64,000 nucleotides of DNA from an uncultured Pelagibacteraceae bacterium. Lineage in GTDB: Bacteria > Pseudomonadota > Alphaproteobacteria > Pelagibacterales > Pelagibacteraceae. The stretch is from assembly GCA_902571955.1 (NCBI GenBank), contig CACGDZ010000001.1, forward strand, positions 62,001 to 126,000, written 5' to 3'. The notes below the pieces were generated by a model. It saw only the letters and a program-made list of their open reading frames with translations. It was not told the origin of the DNA and did no database searches. Below, piece by piece: positions 3 to 14,788 of the stretch (the first letter of the stretch is position 1; each line of letters starts with the position of its first letter). The translations under genes and the position numbers were made by a program.

Positions 3-152
3 GATTATTTAAGTTCTGCAGAAAGATTACTTGATTATCAATCACAGTATTTTGAGGATGAGTTAATTCAAAAAAATATAAACAACATAAAAATCTTTGT
101 TATTTCAGATGACATAAATAAAATCCAAAATTTTAAAATTATTAAAGAGTAA
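3..152 (+). CDS. ftsL: C-terminal end of an FtsL-like cell division protein (5' partial)
   Basis: An open frame entering from the left edge ends with TAA at 150-152, sharing two bases with the next start codon. The visible 49 residues begin DYLSSAERLLDYQSQYF. This resembles the periplasmic tail of alphaproteobacterial FtsL-like proteins, in which a short motif of the type YL-x-x-x-ER-x-x-x-L follows the coiled coil. The gene directly before ftsI in this cluster is normally ftsL, a small bitopic divisome protein. The start, membrane helix and most of the coiled coil lie outside the window, so the assignment rests on position and this short similarity. Confidence 0.55.
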   Translation, partial: DYLSSAERLLDYQSQYFEDELIQKNINNIKIFVISDDINKIQNFKIIKE

Positions 153-1843
153 TGGCTAATAATAAATCGAAATTAATAATAGAAGACTATAAAAGTGAAT
201 TTACATTTAAGAAAAAAGAGAATGGGCTAAATATTCATTTTAATCGTGTAGCTTTTATTTTCTTTGTTTTTTTTATTATCTATTTGATTTACACAATACA
301 CCTCGTTCACCTAGGTTTACGAAAGAGTAAGTTAGAAAAAATAAATAATCTTCCTACATTTAAAAATCAGCTATATCGAGCAGACATCATAGATATTAAT
401 GGAAATTATTTAGCTAAGACAGTTAAATCGATTGATATTGGTTTAAAAACTTCAGATATAATCAATGAAAAAAAATTACTTTTAAGTTTAAACATTATTT
501 TTCCTAATAAAAATTTTGATGAAATTAAAAAAAAAATAAAAACTAAAAAATTTTTTTATTTAGAGAAGAAAATTTCAGAGGAAAATTATGAAAAAATAAT
601 GAAATTAGGTGACAAATCTTTAGTTCCAGAGGAAAGAGTTTTAAGGATGTATCCACAAAAAAATCTTTTTAGTCATGTTTTGGGTCAGATAGATGATGAT
701 AATAATGGTATCTCTGGATTAGAAAAATCGTTAAATGATGAACTCAGAAAATCTAAAGAGTCAATTAAACTTACATTAGATAAAGATATTCAATTTTTAA
801 TTAGAAAAGAATTAATTAAATATCAGGAAATTTTTAAAAGCAAAGGTAGTGCAGCTATTTTAATGGATGTAAATAATGGCAATATTTTATCATTAGTTTC
901 TTTGCCAGATTTCAATCCAAATGAAAGACAAAATATTACAGATGTAAATTACATTAACAGGGTAACTAAAGGAACATATGAACTTGGGTCTGTATTTAAA
1001 GCATTTACTTTTGCTAGCGCCTTAAATGAAAAAGTAATTAAACCAGAGACTGAATTTTTAGATTTACCCAAATCAATTAAATGTGACAAATACAGAATAG
1101 GTGAGTACGACAATGAAATACCATCAGATTTAACTGCAGAGCAAATTTTAGTTAGATCTGGTAATATAGGATCAGTAAAAATTGCACAAAAAATTGGCTC
1201 AGAAAAATTTAAATTATTTTTAGAAAAAATTGGCGTTTTAAGTGATATTGATTTTGATATTGAAGAAGTTGCTCCTCAAAAAAATTATGATTTTGGAAAA
1301 TGCAGATTGGCTACAGCTTCTTTTGGACATGGAATAGCAACTACAATTCTTCAATTAGCAAAAGGATATTCTGTTTTATCAAATGGCGGTTATGAAATTA
1401 AGCCAACATTAATTTATAAAGAAAAAAATTTTAATAAAAAAAATGTAAGAATATTGAACAGAGGTATTTCAGAACAAGTTGTTAGTGCGTTAAGAAAAAT
1501 TGTAAATACTGAAGAAGGGACAGCTAAATTTGCAGATATTCAAAATTATGAAATTGGTGGAAAAACAGGAACCGCTGATCAACCTGAAGGAGGAGCATAT
1601 TCTGAGGCAAAAATAAATACTTTTGCTTCCATTTTTCCCACATCAAATCCACAATTTGTTTTTGTTGTAATGTTAGATACTCCAAAAAAATCTAAAGATT
1701 ATTATTATAAGTATAGACATCGAGAAGGAGGGTGGAAGGGTACACTTTATAATACTGCCGGCTGGACCTCAGTAGAGGTAGCTGGGCAAGTCATAGATAA
1801 AATTGGGCCTATTTTAGCCACAAAATATATAGAGGTTAATTAA
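152..1843 (+). CDS. ftsI: Peptidoglycan D,D-transpeptidase FtsI (PBP3)
   Basis: Class B penicillin-binding protein that cross-links septal peptidoglycan in the periplasm. The 563 residues start with a lysine-rich cytoplasmic tail and one membrane helix at about 33-52, followed by the non-catalytic pedestal domain. The transpeptidase domain carries all three active-site motifs: S280-V-F-K283 (acyl-enzyme serine), S336-G-N338 and K471-T-G473. Length is typical of FtsI. The start codon overlaps the upstream stop and only two bases separate it from the murE-murF gene, so it is almost certainly cotranscribed with the cell-wall cluster. FtsI and the elongation enzyme PBP2 share these motifs; the dcw position decides for FtsI. 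Confidence 0.95.
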   Translation: MANNKSKLIIEDYKSEFTFKKKENGLNIHFNRVAFIFFVFFIIYLIYTIHLVHLGLRKSKLEKINNLPTFKNQLYRADIIDINGNYLAKTVKSIDIGLKTSDIINEKKLLLSLNIIFPNKNFDEIKKKIKTKKFFYLEKKISEENYEKIMKLGDKSLVPEERVLRMYPQKNLFSHVLGQIDDDNNGISGLEKSLNDELRKSKESIKLTLDKDIQFLIRKELIKYQEIFKSKGSAAILMDVNNGNILSLVSLPDFNPNERQNITDVNYINRVTKGTYELGSVFKAFTFASALNEKVIKPETEFLDLPKSIKCDKYRIGEYDNEIPSDLTAEQILVRSGNIGSVKIAQKIGSEKFKLFLEKIGVLSDIDFDIEEVAPQKNYDFGKCRLATASFGHGIATTILQLAKGYSVLSNGGYEIKPTLIYKEKNFNKKNVRILNRGISEQVVSALRKIVNTEEGTAKFADIQNYEIGGKTGTADQPEGGAYSEAKINTFASIFPTSNPQFVFVVMLDTPKKSKDYYYKYRHREGGWKGTLYNTAGWTSVEVAGQVIDKIGPILATKYIEVN

Positions 1844-1845
1844 TT

Positions 1846-4689
1846 ATGCTTCTAGGAAATTACTTCCATAACATAAATAAAAATTACAAAAATTTTTCTT
1901 TTTCAGGAATTTCTTTTGATACAAAAAGTATTAAAAAAAATAATATTTTTTTTGCAATCAAAGGAAATACTATTGATGGTAATAAATTTATTCCTAAAGC
2001 AATTAAAAAAGGATCTAAAATTATTATAACTGAAAAAAAAGGAAATTTATTTCAAAATGGAATTTTATACATTCACACAAAGAATATAAGAAAATTATTA
2101 GCAAAAATTGCTTTTAAAATTTATAATAAAAAACCAAAAAACTTAATCGCAGTCACAGGTACAAATGGAAAATCGTCAGTCGCTGATTTTTATTATCAAA
2201 TATTAAAATTAAATAATAAAAAGGCTGCTTCAATTGGTACATTAGGTGTTAAATCAAAAAAAATTAATTTAAATTTATCTAATACCACAATAGATCCAAT
2301 TAAATTGGCTAAAATTTTAACTAAGTTAAAAACTCAAAAAATAGAAAATGTAATTATGGAAGCCTCAAGTCATGGTTTAAAACAAAATAGATTAGATGGT
2401 TTGAAGTTTAATTCAGGTATATTTACTAATTTATCCCAGGATCATCTTGACTATCATAAAAATTTAAAAAATTATTTAAAAGCAAAACTTTATTTATTTG
2501 AAAACTTAATCCAAAAAAGAGGTAATGTAATTACAGATCAATTAATACCAGAGTTTAAAAACATAAAAAAAATTACAATTAATAAGAAATTAAAATTATA
2601 TACATTAAATGATAAGAAAAATAATCTTGAGCTACTATCTCACAATTTTAAAGGGGAGGGTCAATTTCTTAGAATTAAATTAAATAGTTCAACAAGATAT
2701 ATAAAATTAAATTTAATTGGAAAAATACAAATAAAAAATGTTTTCATGGCAATAATTGCAGCAAAATATAGCGGTATTAGTTTAGATAAAATTTTAAACA
2801 CAATTCCAAAATTAAAACCAGTCGAGGGAAGGTTTGAAAAAATTGGTAAAATTAAAAATCAATCAAAAGTAATTCTTGATTATGCTCATACGCCTGATGC
2901 TTTAAAAACATGTCTTTTAAATCTTAGAGAACAATTTCCTAATGCAGGAGTCACAGTGCTGTTCGGTTGTGGGGGAAATAGAGATAAAAATAAAAGATCC
3001 AAAATGGGGAAAATAGCTAGTGATTACGCAGATAATATAATTCTAACAAATGATAATCCTAGATTTGAAAATCCTAAAAAAATAAGAGGAGAAATAAAAA
3101 AAGGCATAAAAAAAAATAGAATTACGGAAATTTCTAATAGAGCCTTAGCAATAAAACAAGCTATTCATAATTTGAACTCAGGTGATATTTTGTTAGTCGC
3201 TGGAAAAGGTCATGAGAAAACGCAAGAAATTGGAAATAAGAAAGTTTTCTTTTCAGATAAAAAAGTAATTTTAAATGCAATTAAGATTAAAAATAATAAT
3301 TTATCAAATAATTTAAAATTAAATGTGGTTCAAGAGAAAGTTAAAATTAAAAAATTATCTCCCTCTATATCTCTAAAAATGGCAAGAATTAACTCACAAG
3401 AAGTTACTAAAAATGATATTTTTTTTGCTATTAAAGGAAAAAAAAATGATGGTAATAAATATGTTGCACAATCATTCAAGAAGAAAGCATCGTTAGCTGT
3501 AGTAAACAAAATTCAAAATAATTTAAATAAAAGTCGTCAGATTAAAGTAAAAAATACTTTAAAATTCCTAACAAATACTTCGAAAACTTTTAGAAAAAGT
3601 ATTGATACAAATATTATAGCTATTACAGGTAGTTGTGGCAAAACTACACTTAAAGAATTACTGGGTAATGTATTAAGTAAATTTTCAAAAGTAAGTATTT
3701 CTCCAAAATCTTATAATAATAAATTTGGAGTTCCTTTGAGTCTTTTTAATTTGAAACAAAATGATGAATTTGGAATTTTAGAAGTTGGAATGGATAAAAA
3801 AGGTGAAATTGATAATTTGTCAAAAATAATAGAACCAGATGTTGGGGTAATAACAAATATAAATTATGCACATATTAAAAATTTTAAAAATATAAAACAG
3901 ATTGCTTTGGCAAAATCTGAAATTATTAAAAACATAAAACCTTATGGTTATGTTGTATTAAATGCGGATGATAACTTTTTCCAATTGCATAAAAAAATTG
4001 CCAAAGAAAATAAAATTAAAGTAGTTTCTTTTGGTATTAAAAGTCAGAAATCTGATATTAAATTAATTAATATAAAGCACTTTGGTAAAAAATTTAGAAT
4101 TAATGTTAGGTTAAATAATAAAAAAAAGTATTTCACATTATCAAACGATTTTCAAAACAACATATATAATACACTTTCTGCTTTAGCAGTCATTAGTATT
4201 TATAAAAATATATTTAAACTTAAAGAAAATATTTTCCTTAATTTTAAAATTCCAGGAGGAAGGGGAGACCATTCTGTAGTAAAAATTAATAATAAAAAAA
4301 TTAATTTAATTGATCAAAGTTATAATTCAAATCCTCTATCATTAAAATCATCAATAAAAAATTTTGATAAAATAAACTCAAAAAAATCAAATAAATATTT
4401 ACTAATTGGTGACATGTTAGAGTTGGGTCGTCATTCTAAAAAACTTCATAAATCTATTGTTCCAATAATTAATCAAACCAAGATAGATAAGGTATTTGTT
4501 AAAGGTAAAATGGCATCTATAATATTTGCAGGTATCTCAAAAGCCAAAAAAGGTAGGATTTTAATAAACAAATCTCAAATTATTGAATTGATTAGAAAAG
4601 ATTTAAATAATAATGATTATTTAATGATTAAAGCCTCACTTGCGACAGGATTCAACGACATAGTAAAAGATCTGAAAGGATTGCATTAA
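1846..4689 (+). CDS. murE-murF: Fused MurE-MurF: UDP-MurNAc-tripeptide synthetase and tripeptide:D-Ala-D-Ala ligase
   Basis: A single 947-residue frame joins two Mur ligases that act in succession in the cytoplasm. The first half is MurE, with an ATP-binding loop GTNGKSS at 105-111 and the D403-N-P-R406 motif typical of enzymes that add meso-diaminopimelate. After a junction near residues 480-500, the second half is MurF, with its own loop GSCGKTT at 595-601 and the N-terminal Mur-ligase pattern repeated (NDIFFAIKGKKNDGNK). Each half is close to a full-length enzyme. No stop codon or frameshift appears at the junction, so this is a true fusion. It lies two bases after ftsI and abuts mraY, whose ATG follows the stop directly. 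Confidence 0.95.
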   Translation: MLLGNYFHNINKNYKNFSFSGISFDTKSIKKNNIFFAIKGNTIDGNKFIPKAIKKGSKIIITEKKGNLFQNGILYIHTKNIRKLLAKIAFKIYNKKPKNLIAVTGTNGKSSVADFYYQILKLNNKKAASIGTLGVKSKKINLNLSNTTIDPIKLAKILTKLKTQKIENVIMEASSHGLKQNRLDGLKFNSGIFTNLSQDHLDYHKNLKNYLKAKLYLFENLIQKRGNVITDQLIPEFKNIKKITINKKLKLYTLNDKKNNLELLSHNFKGEGQFLRIKLNSSTRYIKLNLIGKIQIKNVFMAIIAAKYSGISLDKILNTIPKLKPVEGRFEKIGKIKNQSKVILDYAHTPDALKTCLLNLREQFPNAGVTVLFGCGGNRDKNKRSKMGKIASDYADNIILTNDNPRFENPKKIRGEIKKGIKKNRITEISNRALAIKQAIHNLNSGDILLVAGKGHEKTQEIGNKKVFFSDKKVILNAIKIKNNNLSNNLKLNVVQEKVKIKKLSPSISLKMARINSQEVTKNDIFFAIKGKKNDGNKYVAQSFKKKASLAVVNKIQNNLNKSRQIKVKNTLKFLTNTSKTFRKSIDTNIIAITGSCGKTTLKELLGNVLSKFSKVSISPKSYNNKFGVPLSLFNLKQNDEFGILEVGMDKKGEIDNLSKIIEPDVGVITNINYAHIKNFKNIKQIALAKSEIIKNIKPYGYVVLNADDNFFQLHKKIAKENKIKVVSFGIKSQKSDIKLINIKHFGKKFRINVRLNNKKKYFTLSNDFQNNIYNTLSALAVISIYKNIFKLKENIFLNFKIPGGRGDHSVVKINNKKINLIDQSYNSNPLSLKSSIKNFDKINSKKSNKYLLIGDMLELGRHSKKLHKSIVPIINQTKIDKVFVKGKMASIIFAGISKAKKGRILINKSQIIELIRKDLNNNDYLMIKASLATGFNDIVKDLKGLH

Positions 4690-11539: not shown

Positions 11540-12454
11540 TTGATAAAAAAAATATTAGTTTTGTCGGGTGGAATTTCAAAAGAGAGATCTATTAGTCTTG
11601 ATACAGGGGCGCAGGTTGCTAAAGAACTAAAAAAAAATGGTTATCAAGTTAAAATATCTGAACCAGATTATAATTTATCAAAAAATATTAAAAATTTTAG
11701 ACCCAACGTAATTTTTAATGCATTACATGGCCAATTTGGTGAGGATGGATATATTCAAAGTATATTAGAGAGTTTCAAAATCCCATATACCCACTCAGGG
11801 GTAATAGCATCATCTATAGCGATGGATAAGGAAATTTCAAAAAAAATATTTATTAAAAATAAAATTAAAACACCAAAATTTTTTACTTACTCATATGACA
11901 TGATTTCATCTGATTTAATCAAAAAAATTAAAAAAAAATTAAAATTTCCAGTAGTTGTGAAACCTTTGAATGAAGGTTCAAGTGTAAATGTATTTATATG
12001 TGGAAAAAAAAATATACTCAAGATTTTAAGTTCGATTAAAACTTACAAAAAGGTTATGATTGAAGAGTTTATTGGTGGAAGAGAAATTCAAGTTGCAGTT
12101 ATGGGTAATAAAAAACTAGGAGCAATTGAGTTGAAACCAAAAAGAAAATTTTATGATTATCAGGCGAAATATAATATTAGTGCAAAAACTGAACATATAA
12201 TCCCAGTTAAATTAAGTACAAAAAAAATGAAAAAGTTATTAAATATTGCTCTCAAAGCTCACAACAAAATTGGTTGTAAGGGTGTTACAAGATCAGATTT
12301 TAAATTTTACAATGGAAAATTTTATTTATTGGAAATTAATACTCAGCCAGGAATGACAAAATTATCACTCGTACCAGAGATTGCAGCATACAAAGGTATA
12401 AGCTTCTTAAAATTAATCCAATGGATGTTAAGAGATGCATCAACAAAAAAGTAA
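11540..12454 (+). CDS. ddl: D-alanine--D-alanine ligase Ddl
   Basis: ATP-grasp enzyme that makes the D-Ala-D-Ala dipeptide consumed by the MurF half of the fused ligase. The 304 residues contain the N-terminal LSGGISKERSISLDTG, ALHGQFGEDGYIQ, the ATP-grasp lysine and loop region VVKPLNEGSSVNVFI, and the C-terminal metal-binding LLEINTQPGMTKLSLVPE. I accept TTG at 11540 as start, one base after the murB stop, because the conserved first beta strand (KKILVLSGG) begins immediately after it. It overlaps ftsQ by 20 bases. Confidence 0.95.
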   Translation: MIKKILVLSGGISKERSISLDTGAQVAKELKKNGYQVKISEPDYNLSKNIKNFRPNVIFNALHGQFGEDGYIQSILESFKIPYTHSGVIASSIAMDKEISKKIFIKNKIKTPKFFTYSYDMISSDLIKKIKKKLKFPVVVKPLNEGSSVNVFICGKKNILKILSSIKTYKKVMIEEFIGGREIQVAVMGNKKLGAIELKPKRKFYDYQAKYNISAKTEHIIPVKLSTKKMKKLLNIALKAHNKIGCKGVTRSDFKFYNGKFYLLEINTQPGMTKLSLVPEIAAYKGISFLKLIQWMLRDASTKK

Positions 12455-13106
12455 AAAAATTCTACTTTACATTTTTTTATTTATGTTGGTTGGCTCAATA
12501 ACCAATATTAGCCTAAATAATATTAAATTTAATAAAATAAAAAATATAAAGATTTTAGGTTTAAAAAATAATGAAACACAAATTCTTCTCCAAGATTTAA
12601 AAAGTTTAAATTTAAAAAATATATATTTTATAAACGCAAATGAAATCAGAAAAATTATTAATAGTAATAATTTAGTAGAAAAATTTGAAATTTTTAAAAT
12701 CTATCCCTCAACTCTATTTATTGAAATCGAACAAACTAATTTTTTAGCTAGAATTAATAAAAATGGGAAACTTTTTGTAGTCGGATCAAATGGAAAACTA
12801 TTAGGGGAGAAATATTCAAATAATAATTTACCTTATATTTTTGGAAAACCTGAAATTGAAGACTTTTTATATTTCAAAAATATTTTAGACATGTCTAAAT
12901 TATCATACCAGGAAATTAAAAATTTTTATTTTTTTCCATCAAAGCGATGGGATATTGAATTAAAGAATAATATTATTTTAAAATTATCAAAAGAAGATTT
13001 AAAGGAAAAATTAGATGAAGCTTTTGAAATTTTGAATAGCAAGAATATTAGCAACATTAAAATAGTAGATCTTAGAGTAAAAAATCAGATAATTTTAAAT
13101 GATTGA
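12435..13106 (+). CDS. ftsQ: Cell division protein FtsQ
   Basis: Bitopic divisome scaffold protein that links the early cytoplasmic ring to the septal synthases. The 223 residues have a short lysine-rich cytoplasmic tail, one membrane helix at about 9-26, then a POTRA-like domain (INFNKIKNIKILGLKNN region followed by FEIFKIYPSTLFIEIEQ) and an FtsQ-type domain containing the AR-x-N-x-NGKLFVVGSNGKLL pattern common in FtsQ. Sequence is weakly conserved, but position between ddl and the FtsA-like gene fits. It overlaps ddl by 20 bases and the next gene by 8. Confidence 0.9.
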   Translation: MHQQKSKKILLYIFLFMLVGSITNISLNNIKFNKIKNIKILGLKNNETQILLQDLKSLNLKNIYFINANEIRKIINSNNLVEKFEIFKIYPSTLFIEIEQTNFLARINKNGKLFVVGSNGKLLGEKYSNNNLPYIFGKPEIEDFLYFKNILDMSKLSYQEIKNFYFFPSKRWDIELKNNIILKLSKEDLKEKLDEAFEILNSKNISNIKIVDLRVKNQIILND

Positions 13107-13803
13107 AGAATTAGATTTTGAAACTTACCTATTTATTTCACCAGGTGAGTTAAAAATATATTTATTCGACAAAAAAAATCTTAAAAATTTATATGAAAAT
13201 AAACTTATATTAAAAAACCATCTTCAATATATTGATTATAATACCTTAAATAATTTTTTGGAGGAAAATATTTTTAAAATTGAAAAACATATTGGAGGTT
13301 TTTTAAAAAAAATCTCCTTAGTAATTAAAAATATCGAAATTATTAATATTTATATTGGTGTCAAAAAAAAAAATTATAAGGAGACATTTAACCAAAAATA
13401 TTTAAAAAATATGCTAACTGAAGTAAGGGATATTTTTAAAGAAAACTATCAGAATAAAAAAATATTACATATTTTAGTAAACAAATATTTTATTAACGAC
13501 AAATATCAACCAATGTTTGATAAAAAAATAAATAGCGATAGCATATTTTTGGAAGTTCAATTTATTGCTATCTCAAAAAGTTTTGTCTTTGAAATAAATA
13601 AAATTTTAGAAAAATTTCATGTTAAGTCTGACAAATGGTTTGATGAAAAATATGTTCAAAGTTTTTTTAAAAAAGAGGATCTAATTATAACTGAAAAAGT
13701 TTTTAAAATTCATCAAGGTATTAATGATCAAGAGGTACAGATTGTTCCAAAAATTCAAAAAAAAGTGGGTTTTTTTGAGAGATTTTTTCAACTTTTCAGT
13801 TAA
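13099..13803 (+). CDS. Reduced FtsA-like protein: SHS2 domain plus C-terminal amphipathic helix
   Basis: This 234-residue protein occupies the ftsA position after ftsQ. Residues 10-40 look like the first two strands of an FtsA actin fold (LFISPGELKIYLFDKKNL). Residues 50-175 match the FtsA SHS2 (1C) pattern: a helix with IEKHIGGFLKKISLVIKNIEI, then KILHILVNKYFINDKYQ, FLEVQFIAISKS and a following helix. The last residues (VGFFERFFQLFS) form an amphipathic helix like the FtsA membrane anchor. What is missing is the rest of the actin fold: there is no DIGGGTTD-type phosphate loop and no second ATP lobe. FtsA normally has about 400 residues. Fold similarity is my inference from the pattern and position, and needs a profile or structure check. 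Confidence 0.6.
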   Translation: MIEELDFETYLFISPGELKIYLFDKKNLKNLYENKLILKNHLQYIDYNTLNNFLEENIFKIEKHIGGFLKKISLVIKNIEIINIYIGVKKKNYKETFNQKYLKNMLTEVRDIFKENYQNKKILHILVNKYFINDKYQPMFDKKINSDSIFLEVQFIAISKSFVFEINKILEKFHVKSDKWFDEKYVQSFFKKEDLIITEKVFKIHQGINDQEVQIVPKIQKKVGFFERFFQLFS

Positions 13804-13867
13804 TCCTGTTATTTACAGTAACATTTGTTGTTTTTAAATTATTATATAAAGTAATTAAAAGTAATGT

Positions 13868-14788
13868 GTGTCTTATTTAACTCAAAAAACTATAAAAAAA
13901 AATATTTCATTTTCTGGTATAGGTTTACATAACGGACAGAATGCAAATGTTTGCATAAAACCGGCTGAACCAAATTTTGGTATAGTTTTTAAAAGAACCG
14001 ACTTAAAGCAAAACAATTTAATTGTGCCAAATTTTATGAATGTATCTAGCACATCCTTAAATACTACTGTTGAAAATGAGTTTGGTGCAAAGGTTTCAAC
14101 TATAGAACATTTAATGGGTGCATTATTTGGATTAGGTATTGATAACGCGATAATTGAGATAGATAACGAGGAAGTTCCAATTTTAGATGGGTCGGCAAAA
14201 AATTTTATTGAAAAAATTTTATTTGCAGGTTTTTTGACAAGCGACTCTCCAATTAAAATTATTAAAATAAATAAAGAAATCACTTTTTCTCAAGGAGAAA
14301 GATATATTTCTATTAAGCCATCAACTTTATCACTAGAAATAGATTTTGAACTCAAGTATGATAACCAGATCATTGGAAATCAAAGGAACAAAGTTAAAGT
14401 TTATGAAGATGATCTAAAAGATGTATATAACTCAAGAACATATTGCTTATTTGAGGACATTGAATTAATTAAAAAAAATGGATTAGCTAAAGGTGGAAGC
14501 TTAGATAACGCTATCGTTGTTAAGGGTAATGAGTTATTAAATTCTAACGGATTAAGAAATAATAAAGAATTTGTTAATCACAAAATACTTGATTGTATAG
14601 GTGATCTTTACACATCAGGATATAGAATTGTTGCAAGCGTTACCTGCTCTCAAGGTGGCCATTATTTAACAAATCAATTACTAAGAAAAGTATTTGAAAA
14701 TAAAGAAAATTTTTCTATTTTGGAAATTAAAGAAAAAAACCTACCTCATACTTTAATAAATAAAAATTTCTTAAGATCAATAGCTTAA
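13868..14788 (+). CDS. lpxC: UDP-3-O-acyl-N-acetylglucosamine deacetylase LpxC
   Basis: Zinc-dependent cytoplasmic deacetylase, the committed step of lipid A synthesis, showing that the cell makes lipopolysaccharide. The 306 residues have the family landmarks with standard numbering: H81 in STIEHLMGAL, then DNEEVPILDGSA, H238 and D242 in NHKILDCIGDL, and H265 in QGGHYLTNQ. Start is the GTG at 13868; an in-frame TAA at 13862 rules out anything longer. The 64-base gap upstream is one of the few breaks in this cluster and contains TATAAA at 13845-13850, so a separate promoter is possible. In most alphaproteobacteria ftsZ precedes this gene; here it does not. Confidence 0.95.
   Translation: MSYLTQKTIKKNISFSGIGLHNGQNANVCIKPAEPNFGIVFKRTDLKQNNLIVPNFMNVSSTSLNTTVENEFGAKVSTIEHLMGALFGLGIDNAIIEIDNEEVPILDGSAKNFIEKILFAGFLTSDSPIKIIKINKEITFSQGERYISIKPSTLSLEIDFELKYDNQIIGNQRNKVKVYEDDLKDVYNSRTYCLFEDIELIKKNGLAKGGSLDNAIVVKGNELLNSNGLRNNKEFVNHKILDCIGDLYTSGYRIVASVTCSQGGHYLTNQLLRKVFENKENFSILEIKEKNLPHTLINKNFLRSIA

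Follow-up and report, generated by a model that had tools for sequence, protein, structure and literature searches.

A shortened FtsA lacking subdomains 2A and 2B in the dcw cluster of a Pelagibacteraceae genome and its relatives

The gene that stands between ftsQ and lpxC in the dcw cluster studied here encodes 234 amino acids and is a genuine FtsA, internally shortened, that shares its descent with the full-length FtsA proteins of the same genus. In the alignment of the genus, subdomains 2A and 2B are missing as one in-frame block, and what remains is 1C, the amphipathic tail and the pieces of 1A on either side of the gap, with subdomain limits that we take to hold from the FtsA literature. 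By analogy with other FtsA proteins, we think it likely that the product acts as an ATP-free, membrane-bound, non-filamentous adaptor that keeps the late-divisome module and is without the known FtsZ dock.

The window, that is the whole stretch of 64,000 nucleotides that was analysed (G000:C1:62001-126000), comes from a draft genome of 1.15 Mb in 31 contigs that is 88% complete. Five relatives are found among the named genomes, four titled Pelagibacteraceae and one Pelagibacterales (a SAR11 single-cell genome by name). The dcw cluster occupies the first 15 kb of the window, in the order ftsI, fused murE-murF, mraY, murD, ftsW, murG, murC, murB, ddl, ftsQ, short ftsA and lpxC. Pfam was run on ftsI, murE-murF, murB, ddl, ftsQ, lpxC and the short ftsA, and the names mraY, murD, ftsW, murG and murC, like ftsL, mraZ and rsmH, are those that we presume from gene order. 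The short gene and its two neighbours are:

12435 to 13106, forward strand: ftsQ, 223 amino acids, with Pfam FtsQ_DivIB_C and POTRA_1 above their cut-offs.
13099 to 13803, forward strand: short ftsA, 234 amino acids, an intact open reading frame for 1A (N-terminal, middle and C-terminal pieces), 1C and the predicted membrane tail, 2A and 2B being absent.
13868 to 14788, forward strand: lpxC, 306 amino acids, Pfam LpxC at E 1.9e-91.

An earlier note, made from the letters of the window, had described a gene of 234 residues after ftsQ, with lpxC beginning 64 bases downstream, and both observations were borne out; the frame also overlaps ftsQ by 8 bases. The span then given, 13099-13867, is correct for the gene up to its stop at 13803, and its remainder, 13804-13867, is the intergenic gap of 64 bases between this stop and lpxC. 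The stretches of sequence quoted at that time are all present in the translation. In the same cluster, MurE and MurF form a single fused protein of 947 amino acids (window 1846-4689); this fusion also occurs in related loci of the same genus and of some other genera, and murE and murF are separate in L059, L060, L075, L077 and L065 and in the sister family (L173-L176).

Searches of Pfam and of PDB sequences with the window protein gave nothing useful, as no Pfam match was obtained at E<=0.1, PF14450 included, and phmmer against the PDB had a best E of 0.73, so that relatives, profiles and structure were needed for its identification. The top match of the protein is the NCBIfam ftsA model TIGR01174, which is collinear with it at E 0.014 and 14.5 bits for a cut-off of 175.85. 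The same model is the sole match of another short protein, L035 (E 4.6e-5, collinear, far under the cut-off), and the cut-off is missed also by three of four full-length relatives (72.5, 122.4 and 169.6 bits), the fourth passing with 185.2. A Pfam scan of six full-length and two short proteins placed PF14450 above its cut-off in four of the full-length relatives and PF02491 in the other two. Using hhalign against a profile built from 16 of the 49 full-length proteins of the family, we obtained a match of 99.7% (E 3.5e-26) over residues 5-188, and the profile of full-length relatives itself matches FtsA structures at E 6e-28.

The structural comparisons point the same way. An AlphaFold2 model of the short FtsA, for which six sequences out of the 55 short proteins served as input, has a pLDDT of 78.7 and a pTM of 0.75. 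When it was compared with the PDB by Foldseek, FtsA chains filled ranks 1-19, at E from 8.3e-12 to 2.3e-8; PilM, BT_3980 and GspL/EpsL came next, and the first rows beyond this actin-like group had E of about 2e-3. With VIA-align, eleven FtsA entries reached Z of 13.4-10.9 (rmsd 3.5-5.3 A), the model being aligned from residue 3-6 to residue 204-212 with the start as well as the end of FtsA (in 4a2a, for instance, with 7..390). GspL/EpsL scored Z 10.3-9.6, PilM 9.4 and NTPDases, which have an actin-like core, about 9. As modelled, the short FtsA has the 1A plus 1C fold.

Set against FtsA in general (TIGR01174, PF14450/PF02491; 4a2a, 1e4f, 7q6d, 7q6i), the short protein shares the place between ftsQ and lpxC, the 1A/1C fold and the C-terminal amphipathic helix, but is without 2A, 2B and the D-x-G-S/T phosphate loop, so that an ATP site is not recognisable and both the longitudinal 2A-2B contact and the known dock for the FtsZ tail are missing. 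The cytoplasmic domain of GspL/EpsL, a relative of PilM, likewise has an actin-like fold of about 225-240 residues within a membrane-bound protein, and is a lower structure match (Foldseek E 1.9e-5 to 4.3e-5 for the best four rows). This domain is part of a membrane-bound adaptor of type II secretion; it differs from the short FtsA in belonging to another machine, in being fused to a membrane-spanning and periplasmic part and in having been reduced differently, whereas the short ftsA is flanked by ftsQ and lpxC of the dcw cluster.

Along the short protein, the following parts can be told apart:

13111 to 13329, forward strand: N-terminal part of 1A, residues 5-77, from the alignment; the phosphate-1 motif (D-x-G-S/T in full-length relatives) is replaced.
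13330 to 13575, forward strand: 1C or SHS2, residues about 78-159, with limits set by eye, from the secondary structure of the model; FtsA structure matches cover the region.
13576 to 13665, forward strand: middle part of 1A, residues 160-189, from alignments; the profile match stops at residue 188.
13663 to 13686, forward strand: deletion junction, where full-length relatives carry 2A and 2B, from alignments.
13687 to 13716, forward strand: C-terminal helix of 1A kept past the junction, residues 197-206, from model and alignment.
13717 to 13737, forward strand: linker with the motif G-x-N-x-x-E-V, residues 207-213, a conserved feature of short FtsAs.
13768 to 13800, forward strand: C-terminal amphipathic helix, GFFERFFQLFS at residues 224-234, conserved within the genus whether FtsA is short or full-length.

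The earlier reading of the protein as the start of an actin fold, an SHS2 (1C) domain and a C-terminal amphipathic helix is thus supported by structure, profile and comparative alignment, and the absence of the phosphate- and ATP-binding parts by the missing 2A and 2B block and by the motif counts, which were made without the split frames L045 and L122. The strict pattern D.G[STF] occurs within the first 30 residues of none of 50 short and of 31 of 47 full-length proteins, and the looser [DE].G in 2/50 and 37/47, respectively. The junction begins at about residue 194 of E. coli FtsA, according to a count by eye through the profile match, and the missing block ends just before the C-terminal helix. 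Model confidence over 1C is moderate (pLDDT mostly 66-85 per block of ten residues), and Pfam SHS2_FTSA gave matches that were sub-threshold only, in three of the six proteins scanned (best E 0.023), the window protein not being among the three. Past the junction, 50 of 55 short proteins carry the motif G.N..E[VI], as do two of the four full-length proteins of the clade L101/L044/L040/L078; it is absent from the other full-length proteins of the genus (0/25) and from those of other genera (0/20). The tail, with the pattern G-F-F-E-K/R-F-F, is as conserved in the short as in the full-length proteins of the genus (mean frequency of the commonest residue 0.82 and 0.81); in the window protein its hydrophobic moment is 0.60 (shuffle p 0.046), and the model places a helix at 225-232, with pLDDT mostly <50 there. 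On its sequence, this C-terminal amphipathic helix is the predicted membrane anchor.

A match to the short protein was found in 66 of 147 genomes of the family, mostly in frames of about 220-245 or about 370-430 amino acids, with some lying in frames that are broken or at the end of a contig. We then considered 105 loci (100 fetched pieces, each holding the cluster with its surroundings and at most 20 kb long, and five further loci), in which the longest open reading frame between ftsQ and lpxC is short (220-244 amino acids) in 54, full (368-411 amino acids) in 49 and split in two, L045 (G078, short class) and L122 (G156, full class); as the selection was not random but favoured loci with matches and an unbroken cluster, these counts are no estimate of prevalence. 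L033-L037 may be near some of the G genomes. The full-length FtsA proteins of the genus, family and order have the same place in the operon, are collinear with the short form outside the deletion and carry domain 2. Lengths in this slot are bimodal, and the slot shared by the 105 loci supports, together with the profile match, common descent with FtsA. In L045 mraY is split as well, which suggests a sequencing error rather than loss of the gene.

The short ftsA is maintained by purifying selection among relatives. dN/dS (NG86) is 0.17-0.28 in ten pairs of short ftsA and 0.14-0.21 in six pairs of full-length ftsA; among the neighbours in the short pairs, it is 0.13-0.29 for ftsQ and 0.03-0.09 for ftsZ (pairs were picked as close relatives, and L108, L085 and L105 each enter two pairs). 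A pseudogene was rejected on the values for the short gene. One might still regard the gene as a decaying remnant of ftsA, given that the phosphate-1 motif is lost, that five aligned short proteins have only 37-49% identity to the window protein and that dN/dS is slightly higher than in full-length ftsA, but the frame is intact in 54 of 55 short-class loci (L033-L137), the exception being the already mentioned L045, and both the low dN/dS and the conserved membrane tail make such decay very improbable.

No full-length FtsA was detected elsewhere, a point on which the earlier note had made its reading depend. In the source genome, at 88% completeness, no PF14450 or PF02491 match was present at E<=0.001, and at E<=0.1 there was only a frame of 648 amino acids. 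Six near-complete genomes of the short class (G003, G017, G035, G051, G063 and G078, the last with its ftsA split) have no second FtsA, since PF14450 recovers only places that the MreB model also matches, namely a frame of 345-359 amino acids in each and one of 642-652 amino acids in two, of the size of DnaK and presumably DnaK. A second or split FtsA was rejected by these searches. A protein in two pieces, with domain 2 encoded elsewhere and joining in trans, would account for the unchanged FtsZ tail described below; PF14450, however, matches domain 2 in full-length relatives and finds nothing in the six genomes except the places shared with MreB, and we give this arrangement hardly any credence. 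An MreB-sized match is missing from the source genome itself and present in 13 of 13 searched relatives, probably owing to the incompleteness of the draft.

The earlier note had also described the dcw cluster as being without ftsZ, and this proved wrong. A Tubulin-family search of the source genome found the gene (E 5e-50) in the same cluster:

L002:7338-8822 (G000:C1:59337-60821): ftsZ, 494 amino acids, between genes that we take to be mraZ and rsmH.

Its end lies outside the window, about 1.2 kb upstream, and it was therefore not visible to a reader of the window alone; absence of ftsZ from the genome is rejected. The order mraZ-ftsZ-rsmH, judged by blastp against the proteins of the source cluster, occurs in all 94 loci (of the 105) that reach the head of the cluster, with short and full-length FtsA alike, the head being not reached or not recognised in the 11 further loci. 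In the sister family of the order, a match to the FtsA model lies in a frame of 397-403 amino acids in 34 of 40 genomes, and lpxC directly follows ftsA in the four loci fetched. Since both FtsA classes and the sister family are without ftsZ after ftsA, its absence from that place is older than the shortening and independent of it. The suggestion that filament components were lost or moved is therefore right as to a moved ftsZ and wrong as to a loss, and a relocation tied to the shortening of ftsA is rejected by the arrangement common to these 94 loci. The tail peptide of FtsZ, IPAFLRRQ or IPAFLRKQ, is intact in all 96 proteins with a readable end (51/51 short-class and 45/45 full-class; 99 were considered).

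The history of the shortening differs according to the proteins used. A tree of 12 dcw proteins from 99 genomes (those of 106 rows with at least half of the columns filled) requires at least three changes between the short and full states, and these proteins reject a single short clade (delta lnL 1010, AU p 0.0003); read by eye, the tree shows four losses, if domain 2 was never regained. In this tree, L101, L044, L040 and L078 form a full-length clade nested among short lineages, and two of the four carry the linker motif. By contrast, a tree of FtsA on 225 shared columns places all 55 short proteins on one side (SH-aLRT 93), this tree being a quick search with one support value, made without L045 and L122 (split frames) and without 20 loci of other genera. 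The FtsA columns do not reject a tree that unites the first short clade and its full-length neighbours (AU p 0.144), marginally reject the nesting of the L101 clade among the inner short proteins (p 0.041) and reject the species topology as a whole, which may reflect exchange among close relatives. The conflict between species and gene trees is due either to repeated loss of domain 2 with like boundaries, or to exchange of a short (or full) allele, or to faster change after the loss, making the short proteins alike.

In excerpts of the literature on other FtsAs, filaments are built from a longitudinal IIA-IIB contact and a lateral IC-IC contact, and the tail of FtsN lies in the cleft between IA and IC (PMC7613929); deletion of 2B abolishes the interaction of FtsA with FtsZ, and 1C serves self-interaction and the recruitment of FtsQ and FtsN (PMC4281207); and in T. 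maritima the FtsZ tail forms a salt bridge with 2B (PMC5256927). By homology, the C-terminal tail of the short FtsA would bind the membrane, and its 1A-1C cleft would hold a late divisome protein by its cytoplasmic tail, in the way that FtsN is bound in other FtsAs. As 2A and 2B are missing, no ATP binding, no usual head-to-tail filament through 2A-2B and no known dock for the FtsZ tail are expected; antiparallel dimers could still form through pairing of 1C with 1C, and the protein would be a recruiter without an ATP switch. The ATP-free adaptor that the earlier note had put forward as a possibility is thus supported, at the level of a model and of sequence comparison, by structure, profile and alignment.

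The fully conserved tail of FtsZ probably still has a binder, either the short FtsA at a new site or an unrecognised protein; were it the short FtsA, the statement that this protein has no FtsZ dock would be wrong. FtsZ may thus be held by a new site on the short FtsA, perhaps the conserved GxNxxEV linker, or by another protein. That FtsZ is still held at the membrane mainly by the short FtsA, which would bind the C-terminal peptide of FtsZ without ATP, at a new site on domain 1 or in the linker, has somewhat less than an even chance in our view. The intact FtsZ tail in both classes, the lack of any match to the SepF and ZipA models in 14 genomes and the near restriction of the linker motif to the short class speak for it, but the structurally known site for the FtsZ tail is on 2B and is now gone (PMC5256927; PDB 4a2a), and the loss of FtsA-FtsZ interaction upon 2B deletion (PMC4281207) tells against it too.

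We hold it to be comparably plausible, again short of probable, that an unrecognised protein tethers FtsZ and that the role of the short FtsA is limited to coupling late division proteins at the membrane, in the manner of GspL. The loss of 2B and of the 2A-2B filament contact together with the retention of the part that binds late proteins would fit this, as would the EpsL/GspL cytoplasmic domains among the next structure matches, but no such tether was found with the SepF and ZipA models, which matched none of the 14 genomes of either class. As they are missing from full-length genomes too, this absence says nothing special on the short class. SPOR matches occur in five of the 14 genomes, and no FtsN was recognised. 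The only SPOR match of the source genome is a lipoprotein-like open reading frame (L138:964-1725), flanked by lytic-transglycosylase-like and D-Ala-carboxypeptidase-like frames, which we take by eye to be RlpA-like.

In the usual account, FtsA is a polymer-forming homologue of actin that binds ATP and tethers FtsZ (PMC5832921), and for 10 of 12 groups of obligate intracellular bacteria, very reduced ones included, the table of a review lists ftsA as present in 100% of the genomes (PMC10591338). Among the matches listed from the open-access literature, no title or abstract opening dealt with a shortened SAR11 FtsA, which may be known in subscription papers or preprints. In the excerpts of these matches, Pelagibacter is mentioned for ctrA (PMC2877005), cell size and DNA (PMC10906006) and RNase E (PMC5436854), and ftsA for SAR202 (PMC11994032); FtsA was not found in the examined part of PMC7203096.

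In free-living SAR11 bacteria a half-size FtsA thus occurs naturally and is kept by purifying selection, and close relatives have the complete protein. This offers a natural experiment in which the work of 1C as an adaptor and the anchoring to the membrane would be separated from the binding of ATP, the formation of polymers and the docking of FtsZ, and it raises the question of what holds the Z-ring once the dock is gone. We suggest only tentatively that much of one SAR11 genus divides with an FtsA that is without ATP binding, actin-like filaments and the canonical FtsZ dock, and that domain 2 was excised several times in parallel. If this is true, the parallel excision of domain 2 would reveal the indispensable half of FtsA.
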